From Prochlorococcaceae cyanobacterium jk18x1bzbins.87 (GTDB lineage: Bacteria; Cyanobacteriota; Cyanobacteriia; PCC-6307; Cyanobiaceae), in NCBI GenBank assembly GCA_022826535.1, contig JAJDUS010000006.1:1-64000 (forward strand): 64,000 bases of DNA. Reading direction: 5' to 3'. A program made the position numbers and the translations under genes. Every line of letters begins with the position of its first letter. The first letter of the stretch is position 1. Positions 41,660 to 47,088 of the stretch are shown piece by piece. The notes under the pieces are model-generated. The model did not search any database, was not told the DNA's origin, and saw only the letters and a list, made by a program, of their open reading frames with translations.

Positions 41660-42052
41660 TCACTTGGGGCGTCTCCGCCTGCTGGGGGCGGCAAACCCCA
41701 GTGCTTGAAACTGCTGCTCTGCCAGGTATTGGCGCAGTTGTTCCAGTTGTTCGTAGTTCACCCAGTGAATGCAGCTCACTGGGCAGGTATCAATGGCTTC
41801 CTGGAGATGCTGGGTGGAATCCCCATCTTGACGAACCGCACGGGAGCGCCCGAAATCCGGCTCGATCAAAAAGGTATTGGGGCATACATTGGCACAGTAG
41901 CGGCAGCCAATGCAAACGGATTCATCCACCCAAACCGCCTTCTCCCGCAGCACCCCGCCCAGCAGTGGCTCCAGACCCGTTGGGCGGCTGGAGCCATCAG
42001 TGGGGATGGTAAAAGCAAGGGATGGATCCATGTTCAGCAAGATGGGCGCCAA
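41660..42052 (-). CDS. bacterial-type ferredoxin
   Basis: KAVWVDESVCIGCRYCANVCPNTFLIEPDFGRSRAVRQDGD...AIDTCPVSCIHWV. Confidence 0.92.
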   Translation of the reverse strand: MAPILLNMDPSLAFTIPTDGSSRPTGLEPLLGGVLREKAVWVDESVCIGCRYCANVCPNTFLIEPDFGRSRAVRQDGDSTQHLQEAIDTCPVSCIHWVNYEQLEQLRQYLAEQQFQALGFAAPSRRRRPK

Positions 42053-42074
42053 TCCTCAGAGTCAGCCTGAGGTG

Positions 42075-42473
42075 TCAGCCATCCCAACGGGTCACCACCA
42101 GCTCAATGGAGCCATCAGCGGTGTTTTTTTGCTCACACACCTGGAAGCCCTGCTGCTGGGTGGCTGCGAGAATGGTATGCAGGGCATAACGCTGGGTGAG
42201 CTGTGCAAGAAAGCGCTCCACTGGCAGGCTTTGCTTCCAAAGTTGCAGGTCCGTCACCAGTTCATAGCTGCTGCCGTTCCAACGGAAGCCAATATCGGCG
42301 CCATTGGGCTGACGGATGGCCAGTTGGGCTTCCACCATTTGCCCGCGATAGCCTCGCAGTTGCTGCTGGCCAGCCTCAGGCTCGTAACCCATCTCCGTCA
42401 GAGCAGCGGCGAGATTGTCAAAGTTGCGCAACTCAGTTTTGATCGTGCTGAAGTGAGACATGGTGTGCAACAA
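42075..42473 (-). CDS. ycf35: DUF1257 protein (Ycf35)
   Basis: MSHFSTIKTELRNFDNLAAALTEMGYEPEAGQQQLRGYRGQMVEAQLAIRQPNGADIGFRWNGSSYELVTDLQLW. Confidence 0.92.
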   Translation of the reverse strand: MLHTMSHFSTIKTELRNFDNLAAALTEMGYEPEAGQQQLRGYRGQMVEAQLAIRQPNGADIGFRWNGSSYELVTDLQLWKQSLPVERFLAQLTQRYALHTILAATQQQGFQVCEQKNTADGSIELVVTRWDG

Positions 42474-42476
42474 AAG

Positions 42477-42689
42477 TCAGGAAAACTGGCCAAGAGAAGC
42501 GGTCTGAAGCTGGCGCTGGCAACCCACGGCGGCGTAGTGATCTTCAGTGGGGGCGCTGCTGGTAACAGCGCCAAGCCTGGCCTCAAGGTCCGCTGTCAGC
42601 TTCTGGCAACGGGTGCCTTTGAGGCCTTTTACCTGCTCTTCCACACGGCCATCCGGATGAATCCGGAAGCGGATGGTCTGCAAGGCCAT
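42477..42689 (-). CDS. DUF2997 domain protein
   Basis: MALQTIRFRIHPDGRVEEQVKGLKGTRCQKLTADLEARLGAV, directly upstream of ycf35. Confidence 0.85.
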   Translation of the reverse strand: MALQTIRFRIHPDGRVEEQVKGLKGTRCQKLTADLEARLGAVTSSAPTEDHYAAVGCQRQLQTASLGQFS

Positions 42690-43056
42690 GGGCCAACTTA
42701 AAATCTCTGGCCAAATAATAACTGCTTTCCTGCCTTGATGGGGTGGCGTCTCAAGGTCCTTGGCAACAGGCCATGAAACCATTTGCCACACGCTGGGGTT
42801 TCCAGGCACGTCACGGCATTTTGTCTTTCAACCGAGACTTGGGCCTGGGAGCCTGGGTTTTCACTGACATGGGCTTGCAAGCTGCAGGGCAGCCTCCGCC
42901 TTGTGCCCTGGGATTGGTGCATCTCAGGGGCCAAGGAGGACCATGCTTGAACTTGTAAGACTCCGTGAAGTTTTGGCAAGACTCGCTCCAGCAGACGGTG
43001 GCGGTCAGCCTAAAGGCCGTGACACTGGCACTTCCGCTGACCACGCTGTGGTGACC

Positions 43057-43854
43057 TCAGCTCAGGAGACCATCATCCAGGAGAGTTTTGACCTTGGCCA
43101 TGCTGGCGGGATCATCCAGTTGCTCAAGGGCTGTGCGGGCATCCTCGGCCACACCTTGGTCCGGCTCCCCCAGCATGGCTTGAATGAGTGCTTGCACCAG
43201 TTGGTGCTGCTCTGTGGGACTGTCTCCACAAGCGCCATGGAGACGGCTTAAGCTCCAGGCACAGTTGCTGCGCACCACAGCATTGTTGTCAATGCGCAGG
43301 GCTTCCCTCAGCACCTGGCTGGCCCGTACCGCATCCGCTGGATGACCAGCGGCCACATCCACAAGGGAGCTGGCTGCCCAAAGGCGCACCGCCGCAATGT
43401 CTGTGGTAAGAGCCCGACTCAACGCCTGCAAGACTGCTGTTCCGGGATAGTTGCCCAAGCTCCAGGCCACGGCTTTGCGGACAAAGCCATTGCTGTCCTG
43501 CAGAAGTTGCAACAATCTGGATTCAGCTTCAGACGTGGGGTTGCGGCCCAAGGCATAAGTCGCACTCATCCGCGTGATGGGGCAGGGGGCGTGCAGTTGG
43601 GGCAGTAGCAGGGGAATGGCCCGGTGATCACGGTACTCGCAAAAGATGCGCAAGCCCTGCATCACCTCATCACGGCCGCCACGCAAATAGGCAAGGCCGG
43701 CACGGATTTCAGCATCCGGATCCGGACGGTCAACAGCAACGGAATCCAGGGGATCATCAAGGGGGGCATCAAGAAGATCCTCAGGCTCCAGGGCTTCAGC
43801 CAGCAAGCCCGGATCCAGGTCTGGGGTGTGATCGGGAGCCTTATCCATGGCCGT
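43057..43854 (-). CDS. HEAT-repeat protein (CpcE/lyase-like)
   Basis: AIPLLLPQLHAPCPITRMSATYALGRNPTSEAESRLLQLLQDSNGFVRKAVAWSLGNYPG...VVRSNCAWSLSRL. Confidence 0.85.
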   Translation of the reverse strand, partial: TAMDKAPDHTPDLDPGLLAEALEPEDLLDAPLDDPLDSVAVDRPDPDAEIRAGLAYLRGGRDEVMQGLRIFCEYRDHRAIPLLLPQLHAPCPITRMSATYALGRNPTSEAESRLLQLLQDSNGFVRKAVAWSLGNYPGTAVLQALSRALTTDIAAVRLWAASSLVDVAAGHPADAVRASQVLREALRIDNNAVVRSNCAWSLSRLHGACGDSPTEQHQLVQALIQAMLGEPDQGVAEDARTALEQLDDPASMAKVKTLLDDGLLS

Positions 43855-43935
43855 AGGCCCATTGTGTCGCCATTGTTCCACACCTCTCTAGCCGCCTGCA
43901 TGGGGTAGAGACTAGAAATCCCATGGACTGAAGGC

Positions 43936-44061
43936 TCAATGGACTGGGGCTGGCGCTGCCATATCCGTGGGCAGCCAGATGCGGGCCGAGACAATGAACA
44001 GGGTGAGGCCGAACACCAACACCACGAAGGCCATCAGCAGGGCAGCACGGCAAGAGGCCAT
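43936..44061 (-). CDS. 41-aa single-TM membrane protein
   Basis: MASCRAALLMAFVVLVFGLTLFIVSARIWLPTDMAAPAPVH*; same strand as its neighbours, not in the ORF track. Confidence 0.6.
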   Translation of the reverse strand: MASCRAALLMAFVVLVFGLTLFIVSARIWLPTDMAAPAPVH

Positions 44062-44170
44062 GGACCAAAAGACGATTCAGTCCAGTTTGGCCTCAGCACC
44101 GCCTGGCTCAGGGGCACTGGCTGAGGCAGGTGTGCCCCAAGCCCCCCCTTTGTCCAGGGCTGTACCCACC

Positions 44171-45676
44171 TCAGCCGTCGAGCGCCCAGGAGGCGGCACT
44201 GGAGGCGGGACGCGCTTTGCCGGAGGAGGCCCATTGTTGAAGCGCCTGCAATTGCTCCGCGGCAGTTCGCGAGAGGGGCACCAGCTGGGCAGCGGCCTGG
44301 AGAAGGTCGTCTTGCACAAGGGGACGTTCCCCGTCCCCAAAGGCCAAGTGCATGGATTCAATAAGCACCTGCTCCAGCTCCGCCCCGGAAAAGCCCTGGC
44401 AACGCTCCGCCAAGACATCCAGATCCAGGTCATTCTGGCTGGGGCGTAAGCGCGTCAGGTGGAGCCGCAAGATCTCTTTTCGCTCATGGAGCGTTGGCAG
44501 ATCCAGCAGGAAGATCTCGTCAAAGCGTCCCTTGCGCAGCAATTCCGCTGGCAGAGCTTCAATCCCATTGGCTGTGGCCATCACAAAGACGGGGCTCTCT
44601 TTTTCTGCCATCCACGTGAGCATGGTGGCCAAGACCCGCTGGCTGGCGCCACCGTCACTGCGACTGTCGGACCCAAAGCCTTTATCCATTTCATCGATCC
44701 ACAACACGCAGGGGGCCATGGCCTCCGTGGTGCGAATCATCTCCCTGGTGCGGGCTTCACTGGCGCCCACCAGGCCGGCAAAGAGGCGCCCCACATCCAA
44801 CCGCAGCAAGGGCATCCCCCAACTATGGGCCACAGCACGGGCTGTCAGGGATTTTCCAGTGCCCTGGGGGCCCAGGAGCAGAACCCCCTTGGGATGAGGC
44901 AAGCCATAGGCCCGTGCTGCTGGGGAAAAGGCCAGCCGCCGCTGCTCCAACCAGCGCTTGAGTTGGTCATGCCCACCGATATCAGTGGTGTTGGTGGCTG
45001 TGCTGCAGTATTCCAGAAGCTCTGTGCGGCGCACCGCTTGGCGTTTTTCCTCCAGGATGTCGGCCTGGTCATCCAGGCCCAAGGCACCCCGCTGGGCCAG
45101 GGCACGGGCTGCCACTTGGCGGACCCGCTCTTCAGGAAGCCCAGTGCAACAACGGCTCAAGGTTTCGCCCACTTCAAAGGGGAGGGGCTGGCCAGTGGCG
45201 TTGGCAATCCCCTCCAGAAGGGCACGGATCTCGGCGCTACTGGGGAGGGGCAACTCCAGAAGGGAAACCACGGTTTCCAACTCCGGAGGAAGGCTGAGAT
45301 CGGGAGCGCTAATGACCACTGTATGGGGTTGGCGACGCAATTCCCTGGCCAGATTCCGCAGACGCCGGTTCACCGCCACGTCCTCAAGGAAGCGATGGAA
45401 GTCCAGAAGAAGCAGGATGGCGCTCCGTCCCGTGGCCATGGTGGAGAGGCTGTCGAGGGCGGCCAAGGGATTGCGGTCTGCTGCGCCAACACGGTCACTG
45501 GGGGCGTCCAAGCCACCAATGAAATCCCAACGCATCACAAGACGGTCCTGGAGTCGCCGTGCAGCGGAGCGCACCAGATTCTCCAGGCGTTCTTCCTCTT
45601 GGGTGGGAACCCAGATGATTGGCGTGCGGGCCCGGATCAAAAGATCCAACTGCTTCAGAGGACCTGCTTGGACACT
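44171..45676 (-). CDS. ycf46: AAA+ ATPase, Ycf46-like
   Basis: LKQLDLLIRARTPIIWVPTQEEERLENLV; VLLLGPQGTGKSLTARAVAHSWGMPLLRLDVGRLFAGLVGASEARTREMI; CVLWIDEMDKGF. Confidence 0.92.
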   Translation of the reverse strand, partial: SVQAGPLKQLDLLIRARTPIIWVPTQEEERLENLVRSAARRLQDRLVMRWDFIGGLDAPSDRVGAADRNPLAALDSLSTMATGRSAILLLLDFHRFLEDVAVNRRLRNLARELRRQPHTVVISAPDLSLPPELETVVSLLELPLPSSAEIRALLEGIANATGQPLPFEVGETLSRCCTGLPEERVRQVAARALAQRGALGLDDQADILEEKRQAVRRTELLEYCSTATNTTDIGGHDQLKRWLEQRRLAFSPAARAYGLPHPKGVLLLGPQGTGKSLTARAVAHSWGMPLLRLDVGRLFAGLVGASEARTREMIRTTEAMAPCVLWIDEMDKGFGSDSRSDGGASQRVLATMLTWMAEKESPVFVMATANGIEALPAELLRKGRFDEIFLLDLPTLHERKEILRLHLTRLRPSQNDLDLDVLAERCQGFSGAELEQVLIESMHLAFGDGERPLVQDDLLQAAAQLVPLSRTAAEQLQALQQWASSGKARPASSAASWALDG

Positions 45677-45822
45677 CATCGGTCTCACTGGAGTGGAATC
45701 CAGGTGTCCAGGCCATTGCGGTAGCCTTGGAGACGCCAGCACGTCCCGTGACGGAGTTTGGCCAACTCCAGCAGAAATACAGCCTCCAGAGAATCAAGGC
45801 AGGGGACCATTCACCCTCTCCC

Positions 45823-47088
45823 TTAGGCCTTGGATTTCTTCTGTCGCAGCCCCTTGCGCCGGCCAGGCTTACTGGGCTTGGCTGCGGGTTTCTGCGGCGG
45901 TGGGGGCAAGAATGTCTGTGCAGTGCGCTCCTCTTTCAGGAGACCACGAAACCCCTCCTCCTTGCTGACAGGTTCTGCCGGCACCGTGAGGGCTGATCCG
46001 GAGGCGGAAGCGGTGGCCTCCTGGGCGGCCAACTGCTGTTTCAACAGAACCTGAAGGTTCTCCGGTAGCGCTTCCCGGGTCATCAGGAAGGTTTGCAGCG
46101 CCTGGAGCAGATTGGCCACCACCATGTACAACAGCACCCCTGCTGGCAGGGGGAAGAACAGGAACATGCCAGTCATCATGAAAGGCAGTACCCGGTTGGT
46201 GGTGTCCTGCTGGGGATTCTTGGGCATGCCCCAGCCGGAGAGGACCTGAGAGACAAACAAGGTGGCCCCAAAGCCCCCCACAAGGATGGCAATATCCCAA
46301 TTAACCTGGCCATCCACATAAAAGCCCACCTGGCCCAAGGCCTTGATAAATAGAAAGCCGGTTTTCGAGGCCACGCCGGGGACCTTGCCTTCCACCGTTG
46401 CATTGCCCAGACCGACTGCCGTAATGTGGCCAGATTCATCAACGCGGACCACATCCGCACCCCGGGTCACCTGCCAAGTGGGGGTGATGGGGACCGCATG
46501 GTCCGTATGCTCCTGCACCCTCGCCAGGGATTCTCCGTCCCGGGTTTGCAAGTGTAGTGCGGCGGTCTCCCCAATGGACAGGTGATTGCCCTCAGGCAGG
46601 CAGGCCATCACTGGCACATGAGCTGTTTTGGAAAGGAAAATCGAGTGACTGGCAGTGGTGAAGGTCTTCACATCCTCCTGGATCACCTCCTCCGAGGACG
46701 TCACCTTGATGGGGATGGTGTAGGCCACATCGGCAAAAGGGGATCCCCGCAGGGTGGCGAAGAGGGCAAAAAGAATGGGCATTTGCACCAGCAAAGGCAA
46801 GCAGCCCGCCAGGGGATTGCCAAACTCCTTCATGAGTTTGCCCAACTCCTCCTGCTGTCGCTTGGTGTCATTGGCGTACTTGGCCCGAATTTCCTCTTGC
46901 CGTTGTTTCATTACGGGCTGGGCAATACGCATCCGCCGGGCATTGCGGATGGATCCGGCGCTGAGGGGGAAGAGGGCCAGCCGGATCACCACAGTTAAAA
47001 AGACAATGGCCAAGCCGTAATTGGGCACCAATCCATAGAAAAAATCCAGGATGGGCAGCAGAAGATTGTCGGAGATGTAGCCAATCAC
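45823..47088 (-). CDS. yidC: membrane protein insertase YidC/Oxa1
   Basis: [61 protein letters not shown]. Confidence 0.94.

Follow-up and report, generated by a model that had tools for sequence, protein, structure and literature searches.

A cyanobacterial locus joining ycf46 to the DUF2997–ycf35–fed7 cluster, and a putative three-component AAA+ module in genomes, plasmids and phages

We analyzed a 64,000-nt stretch of DNA from a Prochlorococcaceae cyanobacterium (contig JAJDUS010000006.1; hereafter the window), in which positions 41,660 to 45,822 hold a row of minus-strand genes that includes the AAA+ ATPase gene ycf46, the DUF1257 gene ycf35 and a gene for a DUF2997 protein, and we compared this locus with about 150 genomes and with plasmids and phages. 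Open reading frame (ORF) calls combined with Pfam matches gave, after yidC (45823–47088, minus strand), the order ycf46 (44171–45679; 502 aa; AAA and AAA_lid_3, E = 1e-32), a 41-aa ORF named S41 (43936–44061), a gene for a HEAT-repeat (PBS-lyase-like) protein (43057–43848; 263 aa; HEAT_2/HEAT_PBS, E = 2e-20), the DUF2997 gene (42477–42689; 70 aa; DUF2997, E = 2e-19), ycf35 (42075–42461; 128 aa; DUF1257, E = 2e-41) and a fed7-type gene for a single [4Fe-4S] ferredoxin (41660–42031; 123 aa; Fer4_13, E = 2e-17). All six co-oriented genes that an earlier reading of the sequence (the original prediction) had listed downstream of yidC were recovered in the order it gave, and the Pfam matches were unambiguous for the named domain proteins. 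The likely start codons lie at 45679 (ATG) for ycf46, 43848 for HEAT, 42689 for DUF2997, 42461 for ycf35 and 42031 for fed7. The original prediction had started ycf46 at 45742, which corresponds to an upstream GTG; the gene itself stands, with a start that probably lies at the ATG. It had also spaced the DUF2997, ycf35 and ferredoxin genes a few to about 20 bp apart, which holds for the 15 nt between the DUF2997 stop codon and the ycf35 ATG but not for the 43 nt between the ycf35 stop codon and the fed7 ATG, a distance that falls to 22 nt only with a TTG start.

The HEAT and DUF2997 genes are separated by a gap of 367 nt (42690–43056), the length of which varies from 68 to 341 nt in relatives. 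The minus strand of the gap showed no promoter- or terminator-like pattern, and no conserved element was found in it among relatives. A regulatory RNA in the gap was rejected, because Rfam gave no credible match; the single match (E = 0.13), which scores 20.4 bits where the cut-off is 80, falls inside the HEAT gene.

The DUF2997–ycf35–fed7 genes correspond to 'cluster g' of Cassier-Chauvat and Chauvat (2014), present in nearly all the cyanobacteria that they list (PMC4284462). The Synechocystis version (ssl1263-sll0661-sll0662) has the same three genes in the same order and on the same strand as the window, and these genes are co-regulated by SigD and SigD-dependent in Synechocystis (PMC8875361). 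The cluster g paper, in the part read, makes no tie to Ycf46, to Hsp70 or to plasmid and phage cassettes, whereas the window adds ycf46, S41 and HEAT directly upstream. In the literature searched, no other paper describes DUF1257 and DUF2997 as forming a gene cluster, and none ties Ycf46 to Ycf35 and DUF2997. The three-gene cluster is thus already published and nearly universal in cyanobacteria, while its neighbourhood with ycf46 is not published; the locus is for the most part a known cluster, newly arranged, and its value lies in the module that it exposes.

Using tblastn on relatives, we found rnpA-PH-yidC-ycf46-S41-HEAT-DUF2997-ycf35-fed7 to be contiguous in those same-genus genomes whose contig was long enough, whereas nine other Cyanobiaceae genera retained S41-HEAT-DUF2997-ycf35-fed7 with ycf46 not adjoining. 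HEAT adjoined DUF2997 in all Cyanobiaceae examined. In the other-genus loci read, the S41-HEAT block was preceded by rlmN or by a sodium:solute symporter gene, and in both of the other-genus genomes checked (G018 and G135) rnpA-PH-yidC-ycf46 lay together at a separate site, yidC being the conserved upstream partner of ycf46 family-wide. Linkage of Ycf46, DUF1257 and DUF2997 is therefore present in the window's genus, with S41 and HEAT in between, and absent from other Cyanobiaceae, where the three are unlinked; the position of ycf46 beside the fed7 block is a derived, genus-specific arrangement. Because ycf46 joins the block in this genus only, the adjacency seen in the window, on which the original prediction had leaned for its module, is weak evidence on its own, and we rejected it as proof of an operon.

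Linkage of the three families was found well beyond this genus, on chromosomes as well as on plasmids and in phages. Genes for an AAA ATPase, DUF1257 and DUF2997 lie within a few kb of one another on plasmids of Bacillus licheniformis, B. halotolerans and Paenibacillus, and the same cassette occurs on plasmids of Planktothrix, Trichormus, Pseudanabaena, Geminocystis and Nostoc. Outside Cyanobacteriota the triad was sampled through plasmids, phages and one Paenibacillus genome contig, which also carries the three genes and was the only locus to come from a second scan of genome contigs. The cassette ATPases are Ycf46 homologues by BLAST, the closest showing 33–43% identity over about 500 aa, nearly the full length. 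Rhizobium phage L338C and Pseudomonas phage SM1 carry ATPase, DUF1257 and DUF2997 genes with one or two genes intervening; full-size Ycf46-like ATPases are encoded by Mycobacterium, Rhizobium and Pseudomonas phages (L219–L221), the Rhizobium and Pseudomonas phages having unannotated DUF1257 and DUF2997 genes as well. On a plasmid of Nostoc sp. C052, the two small domains are naturally fused in a 188-aa protein (L229:5001–5567) whose gene adjoins that of a Ycf46-like ATPase; this fusion was found once, and a search of genome contigs returned no relatives of it.

All three families were present in 49 of 49 oxygenic genomes sampled. Across 117 genomes their copy numbers were correlated (Spearman 0.88 for ATPase and DUF1257 and 0.89 for ATPase and DUF2997, uncorrected for relatedness), and in 68 genomes outside the oxygenic class DUF2997 never occurred without the ATPase (counts 19/0/6/43; p = 5e-12, likewise uncorrected). 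A second Ycf46 (class B) is present in most oxygenic cyanobacteria, with a second DUF1257 (DUF1257-B) lying about 200 nt downstream of it, and in trees of Ycf46 and DUF1257 the classes form separate, corresponding clades, with modest support in the DUF1257 tree. At several loci of non-photosynthetic relatives DUF1257 was detected weakly (hidden Markov model E = 5e-4 to 0.014; L288–L290) and at others by clustering only, so that the evidence for a triad at these loci comes chiefly from the ATPase and DUF2997; we guess that these genomes, of the same phylum but another class, are Gastranaerophilales-like. The proposal that a Ycf46-type ATPase works with the DUF1257/DUF2997 pair was thus supported, as conserved linkage and co-occurrence were both found across genomes, plasmids and phages. 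We conclude that Ycf46, DUF1257 and DUF2997 very probably constitute a functional unit, and the three proteins may form a physical complex.

The window Ycf46 falls in the class A clade (tree support 99/97) and is 50–54% identical to class A proteins, the homology including the N-terminal region. This region, of about 230 aa, is followed by an intact AAA domain with the Walker A sequence GPQGTGKS and the Walker B sequence VLWIDE. Among solved structures, VCP/Cdc48 remodellers come closest to this domain. The first three residues of DUF1257 proteins are MSH in every one of the 80 rows that make up alignments A1 and A5, and 73 of 79 wider matches share them. The AlphaFold model of DUF1257 is good (predicted local distance difference test [pLDDT] score, 82.5) and confident except at the N-terminus; a terminus that is both exposed and invariant would be well placed to touch the ATPase. 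A fold search of a viral library with this model returned one confident match, an unnamed 147-aa protein, and no credible sequence relative of either DUF1257 or DUF2997 was found in the PDB. DUF2997 proteins follow the motif F.I..DG.V.E.V.G..G..C...T..IE..LG.V.

DUF1257 also occurs in other settings. Tandem DUF1257 genes precede DUF2997 on Nostoc plasmids (L252, L254 and L255), which suggests a heteromeric small-subunit arrangement. In another natural fusion, the DUF1257 domain forms the C-terminus of a 557-aa repeat protein (L284:3602–5275, genome G125). On a Treponema succinifaciens plasmid (L222:6001–6408), DUF1257 lies inside a phage tail cluster, with no ATPase or DUF2997 neighbour in the stretch read.

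Neighbour clustering and Pfam identified 12 loci with Hsp70, one copy being fragmentary, and 10 with a GrpE-like protein; at least seven families are represented. The usual order was ATPase-DUF1257-DUF2997-GrpE-Hsp70, and two loci had DUF2997-GrpE-Hsp70 without the ATPase. The iron-sulfur partner at the window locus is Fed7, whose cysteines 40/43/46/83 plus 87 have spacing identical to C53/C56/C59/C96 plus C100 of Synechocystis Fed7 (PMC4284462). Fed7 binds the DnaJ-like protein Sll1384 and ferredoxin-thioredoxin reductase, as published for Synechocystis only (PMC4284462), and in plants and green algae a J domain is fused to a Fed7-like domain, the resulting CDJ3 and CDJ4 proteins binding [4Fe-4S] and interacting with HSP70B (PMC3564930, PMC6006212). 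Gene neighbourhood and published protein interaction are two independent lines, which together argue for a link between the module and Hsp70.

These observations led us to a tentative model in which Ycf46, Ycf35 and DUF2997 would be the cyanobacterial housekeeping form of a widespread three-component module. Ycf46 would work as a VCP/Cdc48-like AAA+ ring, remodelling a presumed client protein or pulling on it, and DUF1257 and DUF2997, probably together, would serve as its adaptor or regulator. The module would pass clients to, or receive them from, the Hsp70 system; some cyanobacterial cassettes encode their own Hsp70 and GrpE-like protein, and the window copy would reach the general DnaK by way of the DnaJ protein that Fed7 binds. 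Fed7, with its [4Fe-4S] cluster and thioredoxin-type redox control, might make the activity responsive to redox state or oxidative stress. While the module is well supported, we infer the chaperone mechanism, and the complete scheme, with Hsp70 coupling and redox tuning by Fed7, is plausible yet falls just short of probable.

Several results weigh against this scheme. Class A Ycf46 is unlinked to ycf35 in most cyanobacteria and was for that reason paired with the window-type DUF1257 by elimination. Hsp70 and GrpE accompany class C cassettes, not class A, and are not at the window locus. Cyanophages carry the DUF2997–DUF1257 pair, and neither Ycf46 nor Hsp70 was found with it in the stretches examined. 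Fed7 is dispensable and missing from some cyanobacteria (PMC4284462). The fold search of the PDB with DUF1257 gave no confident match (best E = 0.23), and DUF2997 was modelled as beta-beta-alpha at low confidence (pLDDT 60), too poor for a structure search; structure was rejected as a route to the function of either small protein.

In viral contigs, DUF2997 lies directly upstream of DUF1257 in 147 of 157 loci, with no Ycf46 in the DNA examined there, most exceptions being at or near contig ends. Photosynthesis genes were rejected as regular phage neighbours of the pair, because psbA, hli or petF lies nearby in only 11 of the 157 loci; phage P-SSM7 is atypical in this respect.

The logic that we propose, an AAA+ ring with Hsp70, a J-protein and GrpE, is that of ClpB/Hsp104 with DnaK-DnaJ-GrpE. 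Ycf46 differs in that it has a single, Cdc48/VCP-type AAA match in Pfam and no Hsp100 domain, so that the architecture of ClpB/Hsp104, with two AAA domains and a coiled-coil middle domain, was not found, and partners like DUF1257 and DUF2997 are not known for ClpB/Hsp104. The DnaJ-Fer proteins CDJ3-5 likewise tie a Fed7-like [4Fe-4S] domain to Hsp70 through a J domain (PMC3564930, PMC6006212), but the domains are fused in plants and encoded by separate genes in cyanobacteria, and Ycf46 and Ycf35 are not implicated there. MoxR-vWA pairs of jumbo phages (PMC7824862) are also phage-borne AAA+ proteins with a partner; they belong to another AAA clade, and no vWA domain was found in the present system.

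Algal plastids have kept both ycf35 and ycf46, although no biochemical role is agreed for either. Joining them with DUF2997 as one AAA+ module with Hsp70 and iron-sulfur partners turns three families of unknown function into one testable system, suggests why marine cyanophages carry DUF2997–DUF1257, and points to the compact plasmid and phage versions as suited to biochemistry. It is possible, though we hold this more loosely, that the module represents a class of AAA+ machine not described before, which has a small adaptor pair of its own and is spread over cyanobacteria, their non-photosynthetic relatives, Bacilli, plasmids and phages, coupled alternately to Hsp70/GrpE or to [4Fe-4S] redox or radical-SAM chemistry, with plastid ycf35 and ycf46 as remnants and the cyanophage pair redirecting the host ATPase.

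The strongest rival, in our judgement unlikely but to be taken seriously, is that the ATPase and the DUF1257/DUF2997 pair insert or modify an iron-sulfur-dependent or thiol centre, with the DUF2997 cysteine serving as a ligand or carrier or being itself modified, and with Fed7 or a radical-SAM protein as chemical partner. That cysteine is invariant in 105 of 105 distinct homologues, and a [4Fe-4S] partner comes in two forms: oxygenic cyanobacteria have Fed7, and 13 loci of non-photosynthetic relatives and Bacilli have a radical-SAM Fer4_12 protein. Cells also need the Fed7 cluster to tolerate iron limitation (PMC4284462). Against this, the Hsp70/GrpE-type and phage versions have no iron-sulfur neighbour, DUF1257 has no conserved cysteine, and the DUF2997 cysteine could be structural.

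We consider it improbable that the genes are chance neighbours, with ycf46 working independently, in the regulation of inorganic carbon or stress for instance, and with DUF2997-ycf35-fed7 as a separate redox unit joined to it by the genus-specific rearrangement. The separation of ycf46 from the fed7 block in other Cyanobiaceae would fit, as would the published setting of Slr0374, the orthologue of the window Ycf46, which is linked to CO2 utilisation and encoded in the stress operon slr0373-slr0374-slr0376 (PMC7496141), whereas the window ycf46 stands after yidC and before the fed7 block. Such independence is hard to reconcile with the triads or pairs that are linked in a number of other lineages, on plasmids and in phages, and with matching copy numbers.

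Quite improbable, in our view, is a triad that began as a mobile-element or conflict system and was domesticated in cyanobacteria. It is carried by many plasmids and by phages of Rhizobium, Pseudomonas and cyanobacteria, and one cassette adjoins DUF4007, RloB and zeta-toxin genes. A defence assignment by PADLOC was nevertheless rejected, as it reflects generic similarity to the AAA domain of IetA (E = 6e-22) with DUF1257 and DUF2997 unmatched; no protease of an IetAS anti-phage system was found among the six genes and their immediate neighbours. The presence of all three families in every oxygenic genome sampled, and of ycf35 and ycf46 in plastids (PMC5940233), also weighs against this reading.

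S41, which the original prediction had picked out as an un-tracked single-transmembrane ORF, is a real gene: it occupies the same position in the eight same-genus genomes with the locus, in all other Cyanobiaceae examined and in one other family (G028), with the motif SARIWLP(G/T)DMxAPAP and a pooled ratio of nonsynonymous to synonymous polymorphism (pN/pS) of 0.20, which indicates purifying selection; besides the window, it was seen at loci L031–L047, L057 and L325. As judged from its sequence, it is a small conserved membrane protein, with no Pfam or NCBIfam assignment (two NCBIfam matches at E = 0.04 lie far below the cut-off). A role as accessory subunit of the sodium:solute symporter encoded upstream in several relatives is unlikely, since S41 persists without the symporter in G012; no symporter match was found in the window genome, in a search made without a positive control. 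S41 keeps its place before HEAT where ycf46 is elsewhere, travelling with the HEAT block and not with the triad, and it was not seen in plasmid or phage triads. A redox-linked membrane remodelling machine with the ferredoxin as electron source and S41 as anchor, which the window gene order and the one apparent transmembrane segment of S41 had suggested, is thus highly improbable: no other component of the locus shows a clear membrane segment, the genes beside the cluster include none for an electron acceptor enzyme, and the published place of Fed7 in a proposed ferredoxin-thioredoxin reductase-glutaredoxin relay, with its DnaJ contact (PMC4284462), fits a redox sensor at least equally well, which leaves the supply of electrons unsupported.

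Two further features were seen around the cassettes. Ycf46-DUF1257-DUF2997-Hsp70 cassettes (L269–L276) are flanked by proteins whose N-terminal module is VLGG/HEAT-like and whose C-termini vary (FGE-sulfatase, pentapeptide repeats). In non-photosynthetic relatives (L288–L299), the Ycf46 ATPase and several TPR or helix-hairpin-helix neighbours have in common a C-terminal tail, GR-x-[ILV]-D-[FIVW] (such as GGRALDV and LGRTIDF), which may be a docking or client tag, and a neighbour protein in the Mycobacterium phage (L219:6594–7394) has repeats that resemble this tail.

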